From Streptomyces sp. NBC_01304 (GTDB lineage: Bacteria; Actinomycetota; Actinomycetes; Streptomycetales; Streptomycetaceae): a stretch of DNA of 45,582 nt. Below are positions 2,433 to 30,660 of the stretch, in pieces (the stretch's first letter is position 1; each line of letters begins with the position of its first letter). Location: NCBI RefSeq assembly GCF_035975855.1, contig NZ_CP109058.1, positions 1-45,582 of the forward strand, in the 5' to 3' direction. The notes below the pieces were generated by a model, which was not told the DNA's origin, searched no databases, and saw only the letters and a list, made by a program, of their open reading frames with translations. The position numbers and the translations under genes were made by a program.

Positions 2433-2743
2433 CCGTACGTCTCTGGCGAGCCTAGCGGCCACGCGCGGCACCGTCGAGCACCCGTCCTTGCGAGAGGCGC
2501 TCACGCCGTCCTCTCGCGCTCTCCAGGCCCGACTCACAGCCAAGGCCGACACCTACCGCACGCCACCAACATCACCCGCATCAGACCGCACCACATCACA
2601 CGCATCGCACCAGCTCAAGCCACAACCAAAACCCATCTCTCACCTCTCGATTCGCCCCTACTACAACCCTCAATACAAAACACACCTAGGCATTCCTAAT
2701 TTGTCGGTGTCGCTGCGCGTGCTTCTGCCGTATCCTCGTGATC
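2433..2743. other. G-poor gene-free region before the relaxase; candidate oriT and promoter
   Basis: About 310 bp without a plausible gene. From about 2550 to 2700 the + strand is strikingly poor in G and rich in A and C, unlike anything else in the window. It holds a near-exact direct repeat CATCACCCGCATC (2570-2582) and CATCACACGCATC (2594-2606). TATCCT at 2731-2736 lies 7 nt before the ATG at 2744 and could be a -10 box for a leaderless message. A position right upstream of a MobF relaxase is typical for oriT; the nick site itself cannot be read off. Confidence 0.4.
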
Positions 2744-5700
2744 ATGTTGCGCTTCACGAGGATCACCGGTGGAGAGGCAGGATTGTCTTACCTGCTCTCC
2801 GGCGGCGGGTGTGAAGGCGGACATCAGCAGGAGGCCGAGGCCACGCTCAGCGGGCCGGAGGCGTACTACGCGAAGGGTGTGGAGCAAGGCGCTCCGGTTG
2901 CCACCTGGCTCGGTGCTGGCGTCAAGAACTTCGGCCTCACGGAAGGCACCGGAGCTACTGAGCGTGACATTCGCGCAATCTTCGGACAGCACGCGCACCC
3001 CGAGCAATACCGGGCCGCGATCTCCACCGCGAAGGCCCAGATCGACGCCGAAGGGCTCACCGGCAAGGCCGCAGAGAAGGTCATGGCCGACGCCGAGGCG
3101 TCCGCCCGACTCGGCCGGAAGGCGTACACGTACCGGACCGTCGAGGAGAGGACCGAGGCCCGGCTCGCGAAGGAACCGCATGCGGAGCCGGAGCGGATCG
3201 CGGAGATCCGGAGGGAGGAGAGGGCAAAGGGTCAGAACGCTCCGGCGATGTACTTCGACGCTACGTTCTCCGCCCAGAAGTCGATCTCCGTTCTCCACAC
3301 GGCGCTCCAGGCCGCGGGCCGTCACGAGGAAGCGGCCAAGGTCCTGGCCGGCCATCACGAGGGCATCAAGGCCGCGACCGAGTACCTGCAGAAGGAAGCC
3401 GGCTACGGCCGCATCGGGTACCACGGGCAGGCCAAGGGCGACCGTCCGAGCACCGGCCGGTACGTCGACGGGCACGAGTGGACCGCCGCCGTCTTCGATC
3501 ACCAGGTGAGCCGAGCTGGCGATCCTCAGATGCACTCCCATGTGGCACTTCTCAACAAAATCAAGGTCACCGACGAGTACGGCCAAGAGCACTGGGTGAG
3601 CCTCGACAGCCGGGCCCTGAACAAGGCCAGGGCGGCCGCCTCGGCGATCTACGAGCGCACGATGGAGCAGGCCATCGAGCGGGACACAGACGTCGTGTTT
3701 GAGACCCGGCCGGACGGCAAGTCCCGTGAGATCAAGGGCATGGCCCCGGAGTTGCTCGACGCCATGTCCGAGCGGAAGTTCGAGGTCGATGACCGGTACC
3801 AGGAACTGTTGGAGAACTACCGTCAGGACCACGGCCGCGAGCCCTCCGAGCTGATGAAGACCAGGCTCAAGGAGGTCGCTACCTTGAGCACGCGAGACCC
3901 GAAGCGGAATGAGCACCAGAGCCCGGAGGCGCGCATCGAGCGGGCCGAGCGGCTCGCCGCCGAGGTCGTTGACGGGGGCCTGGCGGCCGTGCTCGACAAG
4001 GCGGAGGCGGCCGGTCTGGAGATCCGGCTCGCCGAGTCGGGCGAGGTCGATTGGGACCGCGAGAAGGTCATCGGGGAGGCTCTGGAGACGCTGCAGACCA
4101 AGCGCTCGACGTGGGACAGGTCAGCGCTGATCCAGCAGTTGAACACCACGTTGGGTGACCAACTCCCCAGGGACATTCCGCTCGCGCCGCTCGCCAACGA
4201 GTTGGCGGACGAGGCCCTCAGGTCCGGCCGGTACGGCGTGGTGCAGACCGCCGGCCTCAGCATCATCGAGGACGCGCCGTCCCGGATCAGGGAGAGCGAC
4301 GGCCGGTCCGTGTTCGGCCCCGGCCAGTTGGGCGCCGAGAAATTCGCGTTGGAGGAGCACCTCTCCAAGGAGGACCGGGTCGCCTCCCGTGCCCGCCAGA
4401 CCGGCGCCCCGTGCCTGTCCCAGCAGGTCATCGACGAAGTGGTCCGGGAGTCCGGCGTCACCGCCGACCAGGCCGACGTGGTGCGCGGAGTGCTGGGTGA
4501 CAGCAAGAAGGTCAGCGTCATCGAGGGCCCGGCCGGCGCCGGAAAGTCGTTCGCCACGGGTGTCATCGCCAAGGCGTGGGAGCAGCACACGGGAGGCCGT
4601 GTCATCGGGCTTGGCCCCAGTGCCGTCGCCGCCGAAGTCCTTGGCGAGGAGGGGATCGAAATCCGGGCCAACACCGCGAAGTTCCTCGACCTTGCCCGCG
4701 GCCGGGGCAGCGCCGAGGACATCGCGAAGCTCACGCTGCGCGCCGGGGACCTGGTCATGCTCGACGAAGCGGCCATGACGTCCACCGACCACATGAGCCG
4801 GATCTCCCAGATGGCCGAGGACGCCGGGGCCAAGCTGGTGACGATCGGCGACCAGGAGCAGCAGCAGAGCCCCGAGGCCGGCGGACTCTTCCGGCAGATG
4901 GTCGAGGACGGGCCGCACTACTCGCTGAACACGGTGCGCCGCTTCAAGAACGAGGACGGCACGGTCCGCGAGTGGGAGGCCAAGGCCAGTCTCGCCCTAC
5001 GCAAGGGCGATGCCCGTGCGCTGGAGGAGTACGACCGCCACGGCCTCATCCAGGGCGGCACGTTGGAGCAGATGAAGGGCGCGGTCGTCCAGGCGTATCT
5101 CGCCGACACGCTCGCCGGACGCGAGTCCGTCGTCATCACGGTGACCAACGCCCGCGCGACGGAGCTGTCCCGGGAGATCCGTGGACGACTCGTCGAGTAC
5201 GGGTTCGTCCAGGAGCACGGCGCCGACCTGGTGGACGACAACAGGGCCGGGGTCGGGGACCTGATCCAGGCCCGCAACAACGATCCGAAGCTCAAGGACA
5301 GCGACGGGATGCTCGTCTTGAACCGGCGCGTCTACCGGGTCACCGGCATTGGGGACGAAGGGCAGTTGAGCGCCCGCCGGGTCGCTGGCCGCAACGACGA
5401 CGGCACCGAGCGTCTGGCCGGGGCGGTGAGCCTGCCCAAGTCGTACGTGAAGGAGCACGTCACGCTCGCCTACGCGGGCACTTCGCACGCGGTGCAGGGC
5501 CGCACGGTCGGGCACGGCGGGTACACGCTCGCCGAGGAGGGGATGACGCGGCAGCAGGTCTATCCCTCGCTGACCCGTGCCATCCGCGTCAACCGGATCA
5601 TGGCCGTGTCAGAGGTCCCGGCCGACGAGCACCGGATCGAAGGACTCAGCCGGGACCCGCTGGGTCTGATCCAGGGTGCGCTGAGCCGTGACGGAGGCGA

Positions 5701-7822
5701 ACTGGCCGCGCTGCAGGAGCTGCGGGAGTCGCAGGACTGGGCGGAGTCGATCCCAGCCCTTGAGCCGAAGTGGCGCGACTACGTCAACGGCCACAACCGC
5801 GAGCGGTTCGAGGGACAGCTGCGCCAGCTCCTCTCCTCCGAGCAGTTCGCCGAGCTGCAGACTCAGGACCCCAGCACCGTCTACCGGGCGCTGCGCGAGG
5901 CCGAGCTTGCCGGGCACGACGGGCAGCGTGTGCTGAACGACGCCATCAAGTCTGCGTCGATGACCAGCCCGGAGCCGGAGAACGTCGCCAAGTTGGTCAA
6001 CTGGCGTATCGCGCGGGAGATGGAGAACCGACAGCCCGAGGGCCCCGCCGCCGGGCACAGCTGGACCGACCGGACACCGGAGATCCCCGGCATCGAGGGC
6101 CGGGTCGCCCGCGAGCTGGCCGCGGCCATGGACGAGCGGCGCGACGTGCTGGGCGAGCGACTGACGGACGAGCCCCCGGAGTGGGCGGTCCGCCACATCG
6201 GTCCGGTGCCCGAGGACACGCTGGAGCGGGCCGAATGGGCCCGCCGCGCGGGCACTGTTGAGGGCTACCGCGAGCTGTACGGCATCGACGCACCCAACAC
6301 CGCGATCGGCCGTCTGCCCGCGAAGGGCGCCATCGAGCAGCGCGCCGCGTGGGAGGCTGCGCACGTCGCCCTCGGCCGCACCGAGGGTAACGACACCCTG
6401 ATCAGGACGAACGACGCCACGCTGCGGGAGATGGTCGCCCGCTACGAGCGGGAGACCTCGTGGGCGCCGGCGCACGTGGGCGAGGAGCTGTCTGAGGCAC
6501 GCCAGGCCGAGCGGCGGTACGAGGAGAAGGCGATCCTCACGCAGGCCGAGGCCGACCAGGCGACCGACCCCGAGCGGCGGGCCGAACTCGAGGAAGAGGC
6601 CCGCGGCTACGAGGACCTGGTCAGCAACTTCCACCAGCGCGTCGAGGTGCTGGAGCAGATCGACGAGGCCCGCGGCGAGTGGTACGAGGAGACTGCCCCG
6701 GCCAGGGAGGCCGCCGAGGCTGCCCGCACCGAGCTGGAGCGCCGTGGCCTCGACGACCAGGCCCAGGCCGTGCAGGCCGCCGACGAGCGGGACCAGAACC
6801 TCGACGAGGAGCGTGTCGTCGAGCCGGAGTACGACCTCGACCAGGCCCCGGACATCGACTGGGAGATCGAGGGCGCGACCCTCGACCAGGCGCCCGAGGT
6901 GCGCGACGAGGCCGAGCTGACCCCGCTGTCGCAGGCCGAGCAGGAGGAGCTGCAGCAGGCGCTCGCGGCGTACGAGCAGCAGCACCGCGCCCCCCAGGCG
7001 GCCGAGCGGGACATCGACTGGGACGTCGAGGGCACGACCCTCGACCAGGCGCCCGAGGTCGACCACGACGGCATCGAGCAGCAGCTGGCCGAGCAGGACG
7101 AGCAGCAGTGGATCGAGTCCGAACTGGACGCCGAAGCTGCCTCGTACCACGCGGACCGGCAGGCCGAGGCCGAGCAGGCTCCGGAGATCGACTGGGCCAT
7201 CGAGGGTGAGACCTGGCGAGTCGACCCGGACGCCGAGCAGGACGTCGAGGCCGAGCTGGAGCCGGAGCACGGCATCGAGCCGACCGCCGAAGCGGACACG
7301 TACGTCTACGAGCCCAACCCCGAGCTGGACGCCGCGATCGAGGCGTACGCACAGCAGTTGCGGGAGAAGACCACGGCCGCTAACGAGGCCGAGCCGGAGT
7401 ACGACCTCGACCAGGCCCCGGACATCGACTGGGAGATCGAGGGCGTCACGCACGCACAGCGCCCGGAACAGCTGGACGCCGAGCAGGAGCGGGCGCCCGA
7501 AGCATCCACGCCCACCCCCGAGGACGAGTACCGCGAGCTCTACGAGCAGCAGGCGGCACAGCAGGTCAGGGCTGGTACGGACCTTGAGGCCCCGGCCGCC
7601 GAGCAGCTTCCGGGCCAGCTGGCAGATCTGCAGGCCGACTTGGAGCAGGCGCACGGGGCGCTCGCGGAGATTGCCGCCCGACGGGCCGAGCGCGAGCAAG
7701 CGGCCGAGACCGAGCGTGCCGAACAGATCGAGGTCAGCCGCCGCACCCGCGAGGCCGAGGTCCAGGCAGTACCGGAGATCGACCAGGGCGGGCCGACCAT
7801 GAGCTACGGATCGCAGGGGTGA
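2744..7822 (+). CDS. MobF-family conjugative relaxase-helicase (TrwC/TraA-like)
   Basis: 1,692 aa from the ATG at 2744 (a GTG at 2738 is possible). The N-terminus (MLRFTRITGG) has candidate catalytic tyrosines at 16 and 41-42 and the three-histidine metal site, H253 followed by MHSH with H264 and H266, after FDATFSAQKSISVLH. The SF1 helicase half has Walker A GPAGAGKS (595-602), Walker B LVMLDEAAM (670-678), a GDQEQQQSPEAGG motif and a late AGTSHAVQGRT motif. The protein would nick oriT, stay bound to the 5' end and unwind the plasmid for transfer through the coupling protein at 9107. The last 400 residues are acidic and Gln/Glu-rich with four copies of an APxIDWxIEG-like motif, an unusual extension. 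Confidence 0.93.
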   Translation: MLRFTRITGGEAGLSYLLSGGGCEGGHQQEAEATLSGPEAYYAKGVEQGAPVATWLGAGVKNFGLTEGTGATERDIRAIFGQHAHPEQYRAAISTAKAQIDAEGLTGKAAEKVMADAEASARLGRKAYTYRTVEERTEARLAKEPHAEPERIAEIRREERAKGQNAPAMYFDATFSAQKSISVLHTALQAAGRHEEAAKVLAGHHEGIKAATEYLQKEAGYGRIGYHGQAKGDRPSTGRYVDGHEWTAAVFDHQVSRAGDPQMHSHVALLNKIKVTDEYGQEHWVSLDSRALNKARAAASAIYERTMEQAIERDTDVVFETRPDGKSREIKGMAPELLDAMSERKFEVDDRYQELLENYRQDHGREPSELMKTRLKEVATLSTRDPKRNEHQSPEARIERAERLAAEVVDGGLAAVLDKAEAAGLEIRLAESGEVDWDREKVIGEALETLQTKRSTWDRSALIQQLNTTLGDQLPRDIPLAPLANELADEALRSGRYGVVQTAGLSIIEDAPSRIRESDGRSVFGPGQLGAEKFALEEHLSKEDRVASRARQTGAPCLSQQVIDEVVRESGVTADQADVVRGVLGDSKKVSVIEGPAGAGKSFATGVIAKAWEQHTGGRVIGLGPSAVAAEVLGEEGIEIRANTAKFLDLARGRGSAEDIAKLTLRAGDLVMLDEAAMTSTDHMSRISQMAEDAGAKLVTIGDQEQQQSPEAGGLFRQMVEDGPHYSLNTVRRFKNEDGTVREWEAKASLALRKGDARALEEYDRHGLIQGGTLEQMKGAVVQAYLADTLAGRESVVITVTNARATELSREIRGRLVEYGFVQEHGADLVDDNRAGVGDLIQARNNDPKLKDSDGMLVLNRRVYRVTGIGDEGQLSARRVAGRNDDGTERLAGAVSLPKSYVKEHVTLAYAGTSHAVQGRTVGHGGYTLAEEGMTRQQVYPSLTRAIRVNRIMAVSEVPADEHRIEGLSRDPLGLIQGALSRDGGELAALQELRESQDWAESIPALEPKWRDYVNGHNRERFEGQLRQLLSSEQFAELQTQDPSTVYRALREAELAGHDGQRVLNDAIKSASMTSPEPENVAKLVNWRIAREMENRQPEGPAAGHSWTDRTPEIPGIEGRVARELAAAMDERRDVLGERLTDEPPEWAVRHIGPVPEDTLERAEWARRAGTVEGYRELYGIDAPNTAIGRLPAKGAIEQRAAWEAAHVALGRTEGNDTLIRTNDATLREMVARYERETSWAPAHVGEELSEARQAERRYEEKAILTQAEADQATDPERRAELEEEARGYEDLVSNFHQRVEVLEQIDEARGEWYEETAPAREAAEAARTELERRGLDDQAQAVQAADERDQNLDEERVVEPEYDLDQAPDIDWEIEGATLDQAPEVRDEAELTPLSQAEQEELQQALAAYEQQHRAPQAAERDIDWDVEGTTLDQAPEVDHDGIEQQLAEQDEQQWIESELDAEAASYHADRQAEAEQAPEIDWAIEGETWRVDPDAEQDVEAELEPEHGIEPTAEADTYVYEPNPELDAAIEAYAQQLREKTTAANEAEPEYDLDQAPDIDWEIEGVTHAQRPEQLDAEQERAPEASTPTPEDEYRELYEQQAAQQVRAGTDLEAPAAEQLPGQLADLQADLEQAHGALAEIAARRAEREQAAETERAEQIEVSRRTREAEVQAVPEIDQGGPTMSYGSQG
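6820..6875 (+). repeat. 56-nt exact direct repeat inside the relaxase gene, copy 1
   Basis: Identical to 7390-7445 and encodes EPEYDLDQAPDIDWEIEG. It keeps the reading frame, so the C-terminal repeat region has recently expanded or been homogenised. Confidence 0.85.
7390..7445 (+). repeat. 56-nt exact direct repeat inside the relaxase gene, copy 2
   Basis: Second exact copy, 570 bp (190 codons) after the first. Recombination between the copies would delete 190 residues in frame. Confidence 0.85.
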
Positions 7823-23264: not shown

Positions 23265-25109
23265 TCAGACTGCTGCTCGCACCAGTTCCGGCACGGGTTC
23301 CTGGGCGGGCAGGGGCAGATGCCCAGGGTCGCTTGCAGGGCTGGTGAGCCGGGGTGGCTGGAGTCCGAGCGGCATCAGGGGGCGGGCGAGCGCGGTGATC
23401 TCGGCGAGCTCGTCGCGGTACTGCGGAAGCACCGCATGCAGCCACCCCTGCAGCGTGAGGAACTGCCGCGCCTCCTGCTCCGTGTACGGCCGCAGCCGCT
23501 CGGCGGTGAGCACCGGCAGCGCACGCGGCGCAAGACCAAACTCCCCGCCGGAGACGCGCTGGTTGTGGAACAGGGCGTGCCCATCGCGCCGCATGACGAG
23601 CACGGAGGAGATCGCCGGATCCGCCTCGGCGATCCGGGCACAGTCTGCGACAGCCTTGAAGGACTGGTCGTGACCGGCCCGGGTGGTGAACCGGGCAGGC
23701 AGCCCGTCGCCATGCAGGCGGGCGTAGCGGTGGGCGGCGCCCTGACGGGAGTCGGCCTCCCGCACCCCGAGCAACACCAGCTCGTTTCGGTAGCCAGCCG
23801 CGTGGTTGCGGCGCGCACGCTCCAGGAAGCCGCCCACGTCACCCGGCGCGATCTCGATGACCATGTCCCCGCGCCGCAGGCGCACATACTCCTCGGCCTG
23901 CTCGATCCACGCCCGGTAATCAGCCCGCACGGTGGCCCCGGCGATCCGGGGGTCGCAGTTCAAAAGCTTGATGTAGTCCGGGTGGTGGCCCTTGAAGTTC
24001 TCCCCGCTGATCCGAACGGGCCGCCGGTGCCGCAGCGCCCGCCGGATCATCTTGGTCGCCAAGGTCTTCCCCGACCCGGGCTGCGCCATCACGAACGTGG
24101 CGACCGGCTGCTCCTGCGCTACGACGCGGCTCAGATATTGAGGCACGATCATTTCGTCGAAGATCCACCGGTGCTCGCCCGCGGACAGTCGGTGGTAGTC
24201 GACCCCGGGCGGGGCAGACCTCACCTGCGCGACACGGCGCACCGGCTCGGCCAGTGCTGCAGCCCGCTCCAGGCCACCGGCTACGGCAAGACGCCGCTCC
24301 GGCGCGATCACCGCAGGATGCAACTGCTGCTCGGTGCTCGCCAGTTCCCGGCGGAAGCACGAGGTCTCCGGCGCTGTCCACGGCCGGGCCCGCTCCGCCA
24401 TCAGCGTCCGGTCGGCGCCCACCGGTCGCCGCCAGGAGCCGGCGGCTGGCAGTTCGTTGTCGTACAGCACTGTCATGTCCCGCCGGATCACCATCATCCG
24501 GTCGGCCAGCCGCTCGGCCTCAATGACCGCAAGCGCCGGCACCAGGCCGCGCGTGCACCGGTCGTGGTTGTCGACGGAGACGTACCGGCCGGCCCCGGTC
24601 TCGCGGACCTGCGTCAGGTAGCGGTCCAGGGCGCTCAGCTGTGTCACGGCCTCCGCGGCCGCCAGGACCACCACCTCGACACGGAAGCCGGAATCGCGGA
24701 AGGCACGGGCTGCGGCAGGGGCCGCTGCCGGGTCGGGGGTTTCCAGCACTGCATCAAAACGCCGGGCGCGTACGTGCTCCTCAACTTCGGCCTGCCACCG
24801 CAGGACGTCCGACCGCACCCGCACCCCGGCCGTGCGGTCATCGCTCCGCAGGAGTCCGGCATACCGGGGGTGCGCAGCCTTGTAGACGTCGCGGTCGATC
24901 AACACCGCGCCGCCCCGTTGGTCGAGAACCGCCTTCAACAGGGTGCAGAGCGTGGACTTACCGCTGCCCGGCGGCCCGGCGACCAACACCACCACGGGCT
25001 GCTCCTGGGCGACGGCATTGGTCGTCCACGCCGGGAGGATCACGTTGGCGAGGATGTCCTGGTGCTGGCCATCCGGGAGCGTCACCGGCTCTACGTCATG
25101 TTCCCTCAC
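23265..25109 (-). CDS. tandem zeta-toxin-like kinase
   Basis: 614 aa made of two zeta/PezT-like halves. The first has Walker A GPPGSGKS (45-52) and IDRDVYKAAHP (71-81), matching the catalytic aspartate region of zeta toxins, then LRWQAEVEEHVRARRFDAVLE. The second has AQPGSGKT (342-349) but ISGENFKGHHPDY (367-379), where the usual acidic positions are changed. Zeta toxins phosphorylate UDP-N-acetylglucosamine-type sugars or related small molecules and stop cell-wall synthesis. The gene overlaps an upstream XRE gene by 4 nt, the arrangement of an addiction or defence module. The second half may be regulatory or have another substrate. Confidence 0.85.
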   Translation of the reverse strand: MREHDVEPVTLPDGQHQDILANVILPAWTTNAVAQEQPVVVLVAGPPGSGKSTLCTLLKAVLDQRGGAVLIDRDVYKAAHPRYAGLLRSDDRTAGVRVRSDVLRWQAEVEEHVRARRFDAVLETPDPAAAPAAARAFRDSGFRVEVVVLAAAEAVTQLSALDRYLTQVRETGAGRYVSVDNHDRCTRGLVPALAVIEAERLADRMMVIRRDMTVLYDNELPAAGSWRRPVGADRTLMAERARPWTAPETSCFRRELASTEQQLHPAVIAPERRLAVAGGLERAAALAEPVRRVAQVRSAPPGVDYHRLSAGEHRWIFDEMIVPQYLSRVVAQEQPVATFVMAQPGSGKTLATKMIRRALRHRRPVRISGENFKGHHPDYIKLLNCDPRIAGATVRADYRAWIEQAEEYVRLRRGDMVIEIAPGDVGGFLERARRNHAAGYRNELVLLGVREADSRQGAAHRYARLHGDGLPARFTTRAGHDQSFKAVADCARIAEADPAISSVLVMRRDGHALFHNQRVSGGEFGLAPRALPVLTAERLRPYTEQEARQFLTLQGWLHAVLPQYRDELAEITALARPLMPLGLQPPRLTSPASDPGHLPLPAQEPVPELVRAAV

Positions 25110-25387
25110 CGGGCTGCGCCCTCCGCTCCAGCATCGCGGCCAGCGCGAGGGGCCAGCGTAATGATCAGGTCCGAGTCCAAGGCCCGGGCGAGCCGTACGA
25201 GAACGGGCAGCGTGGGAACGACACCGCCTACTTCGAGACGAGAGAGTTGCGGCTGCGTCATCCTCGCCCGCTCAGCCAGTTGGACCTGCGTCATGCGCAA
25301 CTCGGTGCGGCGGGCATGCACCAGCTCGCCCACCTCCTCGGCGAGATGGACTTCGTCGCGAACTCCGTTGTTTTGACTCTCTGGCAT
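25106..25387 (-). CDS. XRE-family regulator, likely antitoxin of the zeta module
   Basis: 93 aa. The helix-turn-helix is RTELRMTQVQLAERARMTQPQLSRLEVGG (about 27-55), followed by VVPTLPVLVRLARALDSDLIITLAPR, the standard XRE shape. Its stop overlaps the zeta-toxin ATG (ATGA). It probably represses its own promoter through the repeats at 25396-25419. Unlike classical epsilon antitoxins it is a DNA-binding protein, so whether it neutralises the toxin directly cannot be told from sequence. Confidence 0.85.
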   Translation of the reverse strand: MPESQNNGVRDEVHLAEEVGELVHARRTELRMTQVQLAERARMTQPQLSRLEVGGVVPTLPVLVRLARALDSDLIITLAPRAGRDAGAEGAAR

Positions 25388-25419
25388 ACCACTAACGGTA
25401 TATGCATTCTCCGGTATAT
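25384..25419 (-). promoter_or_regulatory. operator/promoter of the XRE-zeta operon
   Basis: CGGTATAT occurs twice (25396-25403 and 25412-25419), and GCATACC (25384-25390) mirrors GGTATATGC. On the - strand TATACC lies about 9 nt before the ATG, with no ribosome-binding site, so a leaderless or near-leaderless start is likely. Confidence 0.5.
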
Positions 25420-25499
25420 CGCAGGAGAATCCGAAGATCCGGCCCCGCTTCGAAGTCCGGGCACTCCGGCGAGCGGTGGAACCCGTCGGCTATGCCGAC

Positions 25500-25536
25500 T
25501 AACGGGTCCTTGGAGCGCAGCGGAGAGGACCCGTTA
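25500..25536. promoter_or_regulatory. hairpin at the edge of the repeat region
   Basis: An 11-bp perfect arm pair TAACGGGTCCT / AGGACCCGTTA around 15 nt. No gene ends here, so it may be a barrier or a protein site rather than a terminator. Confidence 0.5.
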
Positions 25537-25631
25537 TCAGGTTCCCTTATGCCCTTCGCCTTCTTGCCGCCGTCCTCGCTGGTCCACGGCTGGAGCGTCA
25601 GCGGAACGCCTGGAACATCAGGCGAAGCGGT

Positions 25632-25805
25632 CCGTACCCCTTGGACCCGTACCCCTCCCCTTCTTCCGCGCAGCGGGGGTACGGGTCGCGTCGGTTCGCC
25701 TGGTCATCGCGCCCTCTGGGGGTACGGCTGTTTTGCCGTCCGTGATACGGCCGTACCCCCGCACTGATCCGTCCTCGTGAGGCACGAACGAGGCGGGGGT
25801 ACGGG
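25632..25805. repeat. six copies of CCGTACCCC / GGGGTACGG
   Basis: Starts at about 25632, 25647, 25676, 25719, 25751 and 25796, in both orientations. The second, third and last copies extend to CCCGTACCCC. Confidence 0.75.
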
Positions 25806-25880
25806 TCTGCTCCTGGCTGGGCGCAGACCCGGTTCGTCTTGGTCGCCAGGGGGATGCGCGCATCGAGCTGCTGACAGCGT

Positions 25881-25901
25881 TGTACCACTTGAGGTGGTAC
25901 A
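25881..25901. repeat. TGTACCAC/GTGGTACA dyad A
   Basis: 8-bp arms around TTGAG. Same family and same 5-nt spacing as the dyad at 26253. Confidence 0.8.
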
Positions 25902-25911
25902 CCCCGAAAGG

Positions 25912-25937
25912 CCGCCTGACCTGCGCAAATGCCTGTA
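25912..25937 (+). repeat. 26-bp direct repeat, copy 1
   Basis: Begins CCGCCTGACCTGCGCAAA and ends CTGTA; three differences from copy 2 at 26155. Confidence 0.7.
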
Positions 25938-25961
25938 GTGCGAGGCTCTGCCCGCATCGGT

Positions 25962-25989
25962 GTACCACGTGGGATCACCGACGTGGTAC
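25962..25989. repeat. GTACCACGT/ACGTGGTAC dyad B
   Basis: 9-bp arms with a 10-nt spacer, one full helical turn different from the close-spaced dyads. Confidence 0.75.
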
Positions 25990-26154
25990 GGCGTTTTGCC
26001 TGGTCAGCCAGCGTTTTCCGGCGATGTACCGCGAGTACCACGTTCTTTCGAGCGTTTACATAGGGGACGCGTTCGGGGGAGATCTTGGGCGGCTCCAGCC
26101 CTATGTATCTAGGCTCTTTTCCCTGGTACAAGTGGTACAGGGGGTATATAAACA

Positions 26155-26204
26155 CCGCCTGACCTGGGCAAACACCTGTACCACGTAGAAATGCCACGTG
26201 GTAC
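26155..26204. repeat. 26-bp direct repeat copy 2 running into GTACCACGT/ACGTGGTAC dyad C
   Basis: Direct repeat 26155-26180 (begins CCGCCTGACCTGGGCAAA); dyad arms 26178-26186 and 26196-26204 with a 9-nt spacer. Confidence 0.75.
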
Positions 26205-26231
26205 ATCTTGCTCTTGAGTTCCCCGAATCAT

Positions 26232-26273
26232 GGCTCTGACCTGGGTAAACGATGTACCACGTCAAGTGGTACA
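26232..26273. repeat. diverged direct repeat copy 3 with TGTACCAC/GTGGTACA dyad D
   Basis: CTGACCTGGGTAAAC is followed by the dyad 26253-26273 around GTCAA. The direct repeat again runs straight into a GTACCAC arm, as in copy 2. Confidence 0.7.
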
Positions 26274-26493
26274 CGCTCGGTTGTCCCTAGGGGGTATGCG
26301 GGCCGTTGCCGCAGATCAGCAGAGTGGCCCTGTACCGCAGTTGGGAGCCGCCGCTCGCCGCGAAGGGCGCCAGGAAGGCCCCTGATCGCCCCGGAGATCG
26401 CCGCACAGGGCGGCCGGGCCCCCGTTCCTCCGCCGATCCCGTGCCGGGCCATCTGGGCGCCGTACGGGCGATGTTGTCCTCGGCGGGCATGAG

Positions 26494-26534
26494 GGAGCCC
26501 CCAGCCGGTCGGGTGGACTGCAGCTGGGGGCTCC
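26494..26534 (-). terminator. terminator of the 27281-26582 operon
   Basis: A 12-bp perfect stem GGAGCCCCCAGC / GCTGGGGGCTCC, 48 nt beyond the last stop codon of the - strand genes. Confidence 0.75.
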
Positions 26535-26581
26535 GTACGCCCGAGCTCACGGGGGAGAGCAGCGGGCGCGCTTGCGGGGTG

Positions 26582-26794
26582 TTACACGGGCCGCTCGACG
26601 TCGAGTTCGGCCCAGGCGAGGACCCGGAGGGTCGCGCCGTCCGTGAAGCGGATGATGAGGGTCAGGTCCCCTATGGCCGAGCGGCCCGAGGAGGGCGTGC
26701 CCTCGACGGTGCGCTCGCTCCCGTCGGCCAGGCGCACGATGTCGCCGCCGCGGACCGTCACGGCGGCGCGAGGGGAGCCGGTCACTGCCTTCAC
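26582..26794 (-). CDS. 70-aa small beta-rich protein
   Basis: GTG start at 26794 overlapping the previous stop (GTGA). Sequence with GGDIVRLADGSERTVEGT...LTLIIRFTDGATLRVLAWAELDVERPV reads as a small all-beta barrel, similar in flavour to SH3-like domains. Last gene of a three-gene coupled operon. Function not recognised. Confidence 0.65.
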   Translation of the reverse strand: MKAVTGSPRAAVTVRGGDIVRLADGSERTVEGTPSSGRSAIGDLTLIIRFTDGATLRVLAWAELDVERPV

Positions 26795-27379: not shown

Positions 27380-28609
27380 TCAGGCCGCTACGCCGACGTC
27401 TTCGGCGAGCTGGCGGGCGGTGTAGGAGAGCGCACCGGTCGCCGTGCGCTGCAGGTCCGCCGCGAGGGCACGGCCTGACGGTACGTACCGCACCGCCTCG
27501 GGCGAGGTCTCGTACGCGAGGCGCAGGTACTGCAGGGCGGCCGCGGGCTCCCGGCGGACGTGCTCGTTCTTCGCCGCGTCGAGGTAGAGCCGCGAGCGCC
27601 GCTCGACGGAGGGGATCGAGGCAGGGTCCGTGTCCGCGAGTTGCTGCAGCGCGATGCCCGGGGTCCGCAGGTCGGCCCCGATCGTCACCGCGTGCACGGC
27701 GACGTTGCCTGCGCCGAACATCGTCCAGGGGTGCGCGTAGGAGGGCCCGAGGTTCTTCGCCGTCCGGTCGGCCTCCCCGTGCCAGCGCCAAGCGTCGCCG
27801 TCCCGGGCATCCTGCGCCGCGGTGACCGCCGCATGCAGGCACAGCGAGCCGAACATGCCGCGCAGCCGGTCCGAGCCGCCCTCGAGTTGGGGCCGCAGGG
27901 TGTCGGCCGCGTCCGCGACCATGACGAGGGCCTCCTCCGTGTGGCCGGCCACCCGCAGCCCGTTGCCGACGATCCAGGCTGCCGAGGCGAGCGCGATCGG
28001 GTCATCGGCCTGCTCGGCCGCCATCCGGGCACGGTCGACGATCACCCAGTACAGCTCCGACTCGACGGTGTGCGCGGCGTACTGCTGCGCGAGCGCGTAC
28101 GTCTCGCTCAGCACCACCGAGGCCCGGCGCTTCTCGCTCCCATGTGCCGCGCGGACCGTGGCGTGTCCCGCCGAGATCAGCCCCGGCAGCACCGCGGCGA
28201 CCGCTGTGCGCTGGCCGCGGACTTGATGCCAGATGTCCCATGCCTGCCGGACCCGTCCGGCCAGGTGTCCGACGTCCTCCGGGGTGCCGGCGGCCGCGAA
28301 CAGTGGCGCGTGGATCGCGGCGCGCAGCGCGGGCACGCCGGGGTGCGAGACCTTGCCGCCGTCGTTGATGGGCACCGATACGTCGTGGTCGCCGGTCAGG
28401 TCGCTGATGTCCTGGCAGCCGAGCACACGGCCGAGCTTCACGATCATCGCGAGGTTGCGGATCTGACGCTCGCTCCGCTCGACCTTCTTGACCCAGTCCT
28501 CACTGCGGCCGACGAGGCCGCCCAGGGCGGAACGGGTCAGCTGGCGGCGTTCCCTGCGGCTGCGCAGGAGTTCGCCGTCCACGGTCATCTGCACTGTCTC
28601 GTCAGGCAT
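27380..28609 (-). CDS. XRE-type regulator with C-terminal TPR-like sensor
   Basis: 409 aa from the ATG at 28609 (GAGGGGG upstream). The N-terminal helix-turn-helix is ELLRSRRERRQLTRSALGGLVGRSEDWVKKVERSERQIRN (about 13-52), followed by LGRVLGCQDISDLTGD. Residues 90-409 are Ala-rich helices with TPR character (ALAQQYAAHTVESELYWVIVDRARMAAEQADDPIALASAAWIVGNGLRVAGHTEEALVM). Such proteins are common in Streptomyces, where the C-terminal repeats sense a ligand. Target genes unknown; the neighbouring small operon is a candidate. Confidence 0.8.
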   Translation of the reverse strand: MPDETVQMTVDGELLRSRRERRQLTRSALGGLVGRSEDWVKKVERSERQIRNLAMIVKLGRVLGCQDISDLTGDHDVSVPINDGGKVSHPGVPALRAAIHAPLFAAAGTPEDVGHLAGRVRQAWDIWHQVRGQRTAVAAVLPGLISAGHATVRAAHGSEKRRASVVLSETYALAQQYAAHTVESELYWVIVDRARMAAEQADDPIALASAAWIVGNGLRVAGHTEEALVMVADAADTLRPQLEGGSDRLRGMFGSLCLHAAVTAAQDARDGDAWRWHGEADRTAKNLGPSYAHPWTMFGAGNVAVHAVTIGADLRTPGIALQQLADTDPASIPSVERRSRLYLDAAKNEHVRREPAAALQYLRLAYETSPEAVRYVPSGRALAADLQRTATGALSYTARQLAEDVGVAA

Positions 28610-29466: not shown

Positions 29467-30660
29467 GTGCAGATCAACGGGGCGGAAGGACAACGACCGG
29501 GGACCGCACTGCTCTTGGCAGGCGCCCCCGCGGGCAAGGGCGCGCTCGTCGACGCGAACAGCGTGATCCCCACGCTGGCCGCCGTGGCGCCGGCCGCGTG
29601 GACCGGGACGGCGGCGACCACGATGATCGAGCTTGTCGATCCCGTCGAGCCGCAGGCCGTCCTGACCCGCATCCGGGGCGCCGCGCTCGTCGAGGGCCCG
29701 CTCACGATCGTGCTCGTCGGCCAGCTGCACCTCGACCGCAAGCAGCACGCCCTGCATGTCGCGCTTGCCCGCACCACTCCCTCGACGATGCGCTACACGG
29801 CCCTGCCATGGGCTTGGCTCACCGGCGAGTTGCAGCAGCGTGCCCCTGGCACCACCACGCTCTACGCCGACCTGGTGGCCGATCCCGAGGCATGGCAGCT
29901 ACTCGACCAGGAGCCGCTCACCATCCCCCAGGGCGCCCGTGCGTACGGCGTCATCGCCCCGCCCCCGCCGCGCCGGCGGATCGTCAAACCCCGCTACACC
30001 TACGCCCTGGCCCAGATACTCCGCTCCGGCTACCAGACCGGCCCCGACCAGCTGCACCTCGAAGTCCTGCACCGGGCCGCCGTCCCCGACGAGGCGCTCG
30101 TCCTCGGCCCGCGCCCCGCACCCACCGCCGCTGTGCCGCCCGCGAATCCGGCCCTGGCCCCAGCCCGCCCGGTACTGCCAGCCCAGGCGCAGCGGCCCGC
30201 CAGCGGCGTTCCCGCGGCCGCGGCCGACGAGGAGCTGCACGAGCAGATCGCCGCCGCCTCGAAGGCCGGCGACCACCAGCTCGCCGACGAACTGGCCGTC
30301 GCCGCCGAGCAGCGCGCGGCCCGGACCTTCGGCCCCAACTCCTTCGCCACCATCCACTGGACCGAGGTCCGGGCGTTCGTTGCCTCGGTCGCCCAGGACC
30401 CGGCCGCCAGCTGCCAGTTGTGGCTCACCGCCGCGGAGACCCGGCTCGACACCCTGCAGCAGGCCACCGACGCCCACGACGTCGAGTCCGCCGTCGACCG
30501 CGCCCACCACCAGTGGCTGCAGCTCCGGGACCCGGTAGCCGCCCGCGCTTACGCGCCCCGGCTCGTCGCGCTGCGCCGCCGGGTGCCGGGCCGTCAACGT
30601 GGCGCCCTCGAATCCATCCAGAAGATGCTGGAGCGCCTGAACAGCCTGCCCACGCGCTGA
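29467..30660 (+). CDS. possible degenerate caspase-like domain with C-terminal TPR-like repeats
   Basis: 397 aa from the GTG at 29467, with TACGGT 6 nt upstream. The first 150 residues alternate strands and helices (GTALLLAGAP; DANSVIPTLAAVAPAAW; TMIELVDPVEPQAVLTRIRGAALVEGPLTIVLVGQLHLD; ALPWAWLTGELQQRAPGTTTLYADLVA) in an order like the caspase p20 fold, but with no Cys-His catalytic pair. A Pro/Ala linker (about 215-245) leads to a helical end with FGPNSFATIHWTEVRAF...LWLTAAETRL, which looks like TPRs. If right, it would be a pseudo-enzyme scaffold. The fold call is inference. Confidence 0.5.
   Translation: MQINGAEGQRPGTALLLAGAPAGKGALVDANSVIPTLAAVAPAAWTGTAATTMIELVDPVEPQAVLTRIRGAALVEGPLTIVLVGQLHLDRKQHALHVALARTTPSTMRYTALPWAWLTGELQQRAPGTTTLYADLVADPEAWQLLDQEPLTIPQGARAYGVIAPPPPRRRIVKPRYTYALAQILRSGYQTGPDQLHLEVLHRAAVPDEALVLGPRPAPTAAVPPANPALAPARPVLPAQAQRPASGVPAAAADEELHEQIAAASKAGDHQLADELAVAAEQRAARTFGPNSFATIHWTEVRAFVASVAQDPAASCQLWLTAAETRLDTLQQATDAHDVESAVDRAHHQWLQLRDPVAARAYAPRLVALRRRVPGRQRGALESIQKMLERLNSLPTR

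Follow-up and report, generated by a model that had tools for sequence, protein, structure and literature searches.

A block of short repeats on a plasmid of Streptomyces sp. NBC_01304 consists of two modules, P1 and P2, each with its own homologs in a giant element that is also found in the chromosome of the same strain. We consider it about even odds (a probability of roughly 0.5) that the block is a cis-only capture of the origin (P2) and of a second site (P1) of this element, with both sites being served by the proteins of the helper.

The plasmid and its repeat block

The window, i.e. the whole stretch of DNA that was analysed, is one complete contig of 45,582 bp (C4; 70% GC) from an 11.0-Mb genome in four contigs. 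Its backbone is common to five named Streptomyces plasmids of 37.7-54.4 kb (the sister plasmids), and since, in addition, the gene order continues across the contig ends, as in CP107817, the contig is probably a complete circular plasmid. In a comparison of backbone families, for which the queries came from two sister plasmids only, every family that occurs in five or all six of the plasmids was, among the matches listed, also found in the window, and four backbone rows, including a 405-aa protein, were found in four sisters but are absent from the window. A 905-aa protein was discarded as a plasmid marker, since its matches extend to 59 of 295 genomes and include chromosome-sized contigs. Directly to the left of the block, a Zeta-toxin-type protein and an adjacent XRE regulator are encoded (window 23265-25387).

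The three repeat families described in an earlier note on this DNA, namely CCGTACCCC/GGGGTACGG units, GTACCAC/GTGGTAC dyads and CTGACCTG-type direct repeats, are all present (Table 1). Apart from the six CCGTACCCC/GGGGTACGG units listed there, the contig has no exact ones, ten of the sixteen exact GTACCAC/GTGGTAC units of the contig lie within 25882-26272, and the direct repeats occur in three copies. The spacers of the GTACCAC dyads are 5, 14, 13 and 5 nt between the heptamers; if the longer arms GTACCACGT/ACGTGGTAC are taken instead, the second and third spacers are 10 and 9 nt, in agreement with the spacing of 5, 9 and 10 nt given before. The repeats are real and far above chance: the observed counts of 10, 6 and 3 (GTACCAC, CCGTACCCC and CTGACCTG) compare with means of 0.20, 0.035 and 0.013 and maxima of 3, 1 and 2, respectively, in 2000 dinucleotide-preserving shuffles of 25440-26310. 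The block had also been described as free of genes, and indeed no ORF between 25387 and 26791 passed a filter for codon-position GC, a crude test in a region where open frames do exist. Phage records gave no match to the block at E 1e-5, viral contigs gave none for two exact patterns, and Rfam gave none within 25380-26600 at E up to 1; four plasmid records matched the repeat block, all of them from Streptomyces.

The earlier note viewed the block as a candidate replication origin with iterons whose initiator may be a new type or lie elsewhere. That it is the plasmid's own origin, operated by an unrecognised plasmid-borne initiator, is improbable: the layout is iteron-like, and the native Rep of the plasmid family was not found among the candidate window proteins, but both arrays are absent from all five sisters with the same backbone, and a search for the primase that accompanies P2 elsewhere found nothing on the plasmid. 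As the earlier note had stated, no known initiator gene lies beside the block; among the 29 window ORFs first scanned against Pfam (9+10+10), no primase or initiator/Rep family scored above the cut-off, and there was a single sub-threshold DUF3987 match, in the zeta-type protein. Three proteins were considered in the search for the native Rep, none of them being identified as such: some homologs of a 730-aa protein are named DUF2637, one of 393 aa looks coiled-coil, and one of 397 aa has only a weak caspase-type match. The latter, a backbone protein (window 29467-30660) with tblastn matches in 5/5 sisters, has its weak, sub-threshold match to the EACC1-associated caspase family. The hairpin to the right of the block was considered as the mark of a native origin that had been swapped for the block; its region (26481-26568) matches CP107817, NZ_CP108355 and NZ_CP107781, but no iteron array was found beside the hairpin in these three. 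Since the five same-backbone sisters live without it, the block is probably an addition to the plasmid rather than the origin of the family, and the window plasmid may now depend on P2.

Table 1. Positions of the features discussed in the text (window coordinates; C1, chromosome of the same strain; F and R, forward and reverse units).
Feature	Position	Strand	Basis or remark
MOBF/TrwC-type relaxase, plasmid's own (backbone)	2738..7822	+	Pfam TrwC; 66-69% identical in five sisters
XRE-type regulator left of block	25106..25387	-	Pfam HTH_3
Module P1, non-coding site (CCGTACCCC dyads)	25469..25838	+	About 92-93% to own C1:9249986-9250352(-)
Three-way-junction fold in P1	25476..25546	+	Closing stem 25476-25483/25540-25546, hairpin 25485-25499, covarying hairpin 25500-25536
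Near-invariant CTTATGCCCTT (11 bases) at end of three-way junction	25546..25556	+	20/22 loci
CCGTACCCC unit 1	25632..25640	+	Exact-unit scan; 25632 F
P1 dyad A (units 25647 F, 25676 R)	25644..25687	.	97.3% of cells paired (helix 6)
P1 dyad B (units 25719 R, 25751 F)	25718..25760	.	Only 78.4% of cells paired in homologs (helix 7)
Last CCGTACCCC unit (25796 R) and hairpin 25803-25830	25796..25830	.	Only 77.2% of cells paired in homologs (helix 8)
Module P2, iteron array (ten GTACCAC units and CTGACCTG repeats)	25845..26303	+	81% to own C1:9255867-9256351(+)
GTACCAC dyad 1	25882..25900	.	25882 F, 25894 R; same 12-base step in many homologs
CTGACCTG direct repeat 1	25916..25930	+	Repeat scan
GTACCAC dyad 2	25962..25989	.	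25962 F, 25983 R
Degenerate unit GTACCGC (26026) and GTACCAC unit (26035)	26026..26041	+	Exact-unit scan and alignment
GTGGTAC unit beside AT-richer stretch (GGGGGTATATAAAC)	26132..26138	-	Exact-unit scan
CTGACCTG direct repeat 2	26159..26173	+	Repeat scan
GTACCAC dyad 3	26178..26204	.	26178 F, 26198 R
CTGACCTG direct repeat 3	26236..26250	+	Repeat scan
GTACCAC dyad 4	26254..26272	.	26254 F, 26266 R
Terminator-like hairpin; backbone just right of block	26494..26534	.	Common to three sister plasmids

The giant element and the iteron array P2

According to alignments, the block is made up of two modules that meet at about 25838-25845 and that have separate homologs elsewhere. A 1,201-bp query of the block matches two places in the chromosome of the strain, with 25469-25835 at 93% and 25845-26303 at 81% identity, and there the copies of P1 and P2 lie 5.5 kb apart and in opposite orientation. 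A search of 392 Streptomyces genomes with the block gave matches in 13 at E up to 1e-20: eight, the strain itself included, carry P1 and P2 on one contig, about 5.4-5.6 kb apart and in opposite orientation, one (G320) carries them on two separate contigs, and four (G046, G150, G250 and G269) have P1 only. The tandem, same-strand arrangement was seen only in the window plasmid among the 392 genomes. At a laxer limit (E 1e-3, 295 genomes), P1 alone was matched in 20 genomes and P2 alone in nine, several of these matches being weak and short.

The gene order round the two sites of the element is ParM-like, parR-like, P1, Lsr2, RecJ-like, CAAX protease, a small gene, P2, primase-helicase, polymerase and SNF2 helicase, with P1 sitting between the parR-like and lsr2 genes. 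The primase-helicase has DUF5906 and Pox_D5 domains and matches PHROG primases as well as PDB 7ola/7om0 ‘DNA primase’ (E 2e-37), which we take to be a SaPI primase-helicase. A search of genome contigs for close relatives of this primase yielded 24 loci, two of them distant and 22 actinobacterial, the latter from seven genera (Streptomyces, Brevibacterium, Arthrobacter, Pseudarthrobacter, Kocuria, Promicromonospora and Nocardiopsis). In Streptomyces sp. NBC_01454 the same core lies within a circular plasmid of 639 kb that also encodes a VirD4-like protein and a MobL relaxase, and in several single-contig genomes it is chromosomal, so that we refer to it as a giant conjugative-type element. The 639-kb plasmid harbours Tn7-like genes in two sets (TnsA-like, integrase or Mu-type transposase and ATPase, one with TniQ; L040:28390-35031 and L001:193-3952, NZ_CP109461.1), which are inserted at about 1 kb from P1 and at about 1.5 kb from P2, and the chromosome of NBC_01304 has a reverse-transcriptase-like gene, judged by eye, between parR and P1. 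The neighbourhood of P1 and P2 in the element may be an insertion hot spot. Remnants of the element with ParM, parR, P1 and Lsr2, and with no P2 or primase found next to them in the stretch read, occur in two genomes (L066 and L067, in G269 and G250).

P2-like DNA was found by blastn upstream of the primase in all 22 actinobacterial loci, and neither P1 nor P2 in the two distant ones; in eight of the 22 only 61-178 bp of P2 can be aligned, and one of these eight matches is on the opposite strand. Within 1 kb of the primase gene, 21 of the actinobacterial loci have three or more GTACCAC units, and in the remaining one the match is located 1.2 kb upstream. The steps of the array are similar between genera, and AT reaches 0.45-0.52 in 26100-26279 of the window, as compared with 0.30 for the contig. 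One distant relative of the primase (38%, from a Mageeibacillus MAG; L063) has seven CTGTTCCA units upstream of 5263, an analogous array with another motif. Because P2-like DNA precedes a D5/P4-type primase-helicase in 22/22 loci, P2 is probably the iteron origin of replication of the giant element. No initiator gene linked to the array was found among the 29 scanned ORFs of the window, and the primase search of the strain's own genome gave one match, which is chromosomal. The earlier proposal of an iteron origin with its initiator elsewhere is thus supported in part: it fits the P2 half of the block, whose homologs precede the primase-helicase gene, but the block is probably not the plasmid family's own origin, given the five sisters, and the CCGTACCCC half, P1, is a separate structured element and need not be a replication origin.

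Changes private to the window affect one of 77 columns of the GTACCAC motifs of P2, but 45 of 255 other conserved columns (Fisher p 4.8e-5), and the single change in a motif column is the A to G of the GTACCGC unit at 26026. Other copies of the element show the same tendency, so that the test demonstrates constraint on the motif and not the replicon on which it acts, being compatible with selection in the plasmid as well as in an unsampled donor lineage.

Fold and possible role of P1

Homologs of P1 were found by blastn in 17 of the 22 primase-bearing actinobacterial loci. The motif CTTATGCCCTT, which is absent from the five sister plasmids, occurs once per locus and on the expected strand, except in L058, where it is missing, and in L042, whose stretch does not extend to the expected place of P1. 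In an alignment of 20 sequences, the closing stem of the junction pairs in 100% of cells, the hairpin in 98.3% and the first eight pairs of the covarying stem in 98.1%, five of these eight showing changes on both sides, while the inner four pairs reach 83.8%. Overall, 88.8% of cells pair versus 85.7 in shuffles, 13 pairs are changed on both sides versus a mean of 8.4 (2/500 shuffles as high), and 36 cells are so changed versus 13.3 (0/500 as high), the structure being that of the window's own fold and the relatedness of the sequences inflating the comparison with shuffles. Further pair types were not above the shuffles (34 versus 32.5; 145/500 as high), and sliding the partners by one to three columns gave 3-16 cells changed on both sides. 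The alignment omits partial copies of P1 (G150, G023, G250 and G269) and near-duplicate or similar loci (L041, L043, L044, L047, L050, L054 and L061).

By eye, the closing stem reads GGAACC/GGTTCC in most loci, GAAAGC/GCTTTC in Brevibacterium and TAAAGCTG/CAGCTTTA in Nocardiopsis, where the letters differ and both the pairing and CTTATGCCCTT are kept. The junction appears in the minimum-energy folds of L059 and L062; that of L060 lacks it despite the same stem letters. Since the stem letters vary with compensation and the fold is kept, the alignment suggests that P1 acts as single-stranded DNA or RNA. A constraint test like that for P2 was not significant for P1 (0/40 motif columns versus 7/92 others, p 0.1, with G150 left out).

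In Arthrobacter and Kocuria, the unit of P1 is GTACACC, while that of P2 is still GTACCAC; because the P1 unit varies by genus and the P2 unit is constant, different proteins probably act on the two sites. The same difference weakens a model in which P1 and P2 are two sites of one initiator, for which the ori plus crr of phage P4 served as the two-site example. P1 could possibly be an oriT, a start site for the second strand (single-strand promoter) or an RNA. Of these, perhaps an oriT is to be preferred, in view of the layout (a junction followed by a motif), of the MobL relaxase and of the recurrence of P1 in plasmids with mobilization genes; that CTTATGCCCTT would be the nick site is a guess from its position beside the junction. 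A linkage with the relaxase gene was not seen in the one element examined, where mobL lies about 90 kb from P1 (NBC_01454). An oriT of the MOBQ type was rejected, as the full MOBQ oriT motif was not found in the window and four NBC_01454 stretches, with only a 9-base part at 28287 and 74128. TGTGGACAA/TGTGGATAA, sequences similar to a DnaA box, flank P1 in many copies of the element (A1 columns 34-44 and 687-700), and none is found in the window contig.

A different role of P1, as the centromere (parC) of the element's ParM/ParR-like system, would turn the block into a borrowed origin with a borrowed partition site; it concerns P1 only and is compatible with the other readings. The parR-like gene and parM are about 1.3 kb away from P1 in a conserved gene order, and mimicry of parS is known in SGI1 (PMC10954446). 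We nevertheless regard this role as quite doubtful, given that degenerate repeats directly upstream of the parR-like gene, between this gene and P1, are the likelier parC, and that the compensated variation of the stem letters points to a single-stranded fold.

Possible capture from a helper and comparable systems

P1 and P2 are the only DNA common to the window and to 39 kb of the element in the strain's own chromosome plus four NBC_01454 stretches; 50 window ORFs gave no match in these. As in helper-site mimicry, the cis sites are present and the genes of the helper are absent in the stretches compared. P1 without the element was found on two further contigs, as a full copy with 95% identity to NBC_01454 (G046:C227) and as a broken one with an internal deletion (G150:C452), which retains a 168-bp core and a 43-bp piece and lacks CTTATGCCCTT. 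Both contigs belong to the super-family of the window plasmid, with relaxase identities of 34% (G046) and 69% (G150). Among related plasmids, both arrays are absent from the five sisters, and P1 alone recurs in two other members of the super-family. P1 outside the element thus fell into this super-family in 3/3 cases, a count without denominator. Neither of the two genomes has a ParM or a primase match, so that a helper is not found in every case.

Trees were built from 22 P1 and 21 P2 sequences, and in both the window groups with the element of its own chromosome (support 0.984 for P1 and 0.958 for P2), and the two orphan P1 copies fall elsewhere, the position of G046 being weakly supported. 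By plain identity, P1 is closest to the copy in the own chromosome (92%), while P2, at about 84.3-86.2% to the own element and up to 86.1% to others, is no closer to its own. Compared with the element, P1 is inverted relative to P2 in the window. This inversion, together with the existence of broken copies (the internal deletion in G150 and the remnants in G269 and G250 without P2 or primase in the stretch read), would fit a block that is debris of recombination with the giant element and has no present function. Such a relic is rather unlikely, however, as little is missing from either module and few motif columns have changed, the covarying stem of P1 is still paired in the window despite changes of letters on both sides, and P1 recurs in related plasmids.

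The sites might instead act as a decoy or incompatibility device, with the plasmid titrating the element's initiator and the protein of the second site and thereby destabilising or excluding the giant element. The two genomes with orphan P1 lack ParM and primase matches, and parS mimics of SGI1 stabilise SGI1 and expel the IncC helper (PMC10954446). Yet plasmid and element coexist in the genome of NBC_01304, where the primase and ParM frames of the element are full-length, and since P1 and P2 are found in the element arrangement on one contig in only 8/392 genomes, absence elsewhere is to be expected; a decoy therefore seems unlikely to us.

In the cis-only capture that we prefer, function is read from sequence and context. 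P2, consisting of the iteron array and an AT-richer stretch, would be a copy of the origin from which a giant element replicates with a D5/P4-type primase-helicase as initiator. P1 would be a copied second site with a three-way junction, CTTATGCCCTT and GTAC dyads, which most likely acts in the form of single-stranded DNA and perhaps as oriT. The plasmid carries no recognisable acting proteins, and a relative of the donor element resides in the same chromosome. Once made, the primase-helicase of the element would bind and open P2 on the plasmid, and the relaxosome or second-strand system of the element would use P1, so that the plasmid would benefit by being amplified or transferred along with the helper. 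More tentatively, and with somewhat less confidence than in the capture itself, plasmids of the super-family may in part be satellites of the giant element that repeatedly capture P1, and here also P2, without element genes, and that are amplified and moved by the helper.

Initiators of the D5/P4-alpha type with iteron origins are found in phage P4 and SaPI. As in these, the primase-helicase gene of the element stands beside an array of short repeats, both direct and inverted, that has an AT-richer stretch, but the array of the window is separated from the initiator gene, being on another replicon. SGI1, which carries parS mimics of IncC plasmids and has its own oriV and repA, is likewise a hitchhiker with a cis site of the helper and without the helper's proteins, and gains stability or displaces the helper (PMC10954446, PMC7433901). 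However, what is borrowed there is a partition site, whereas the window plasmid, a mobilizable-type plasmid in Actinobacteria, has a copy of an iteron origin without recognisable initiator and a structured second site. Staphylococcal plasmids with oriT mimics of the pWBG749 family, moved in trans with the specificity residing in short sites for an accessory protein, also carry only the cis site of a conjugative plasmid (PMC8136818); by contrast, a MOBF relaxase is encoded by the window plasmid itself, and P1, a candidate oriT, adjoins an array of origin type. The relaxase of NBC_01454 is of the MobL type, as is that of pLS20, whose oriT is of similar length (362 bp) and has inverted repeats, but the distance of P1 from mobL differs, the published nick sequence is unlike CTTATGCCCTT, and P1 is a candidate oriT only (PMC5313138, PMC5675868). 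The published Aux1-bound fragment of the pLS20 oriT contains TGGTACCACG, which includes GTACCAC, possibly by chance (PMC5675868).

Borrowing of a helper's transfer origin or centromere is thus already known, while a plasmid with a helper's replication origin and without recognisable initiator was not among the matches listed in open-licence literature, searched in part with very strict terms. If the capture is true, it would explain gene-free iteron blocks without a neighbouring Rep and predict a helper element for them, and the extent to which plasmids exploit each other could be tested directly. P1 also deserves attention on its own, as its fold and 11-base motif are kept across several actinobacterial genera while the stem letters change. 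Taken together, the two modules would represent origin-of-replication mimicry between plasmid-type elements and a new family of conserved single-stranded DNA or RNA elements.
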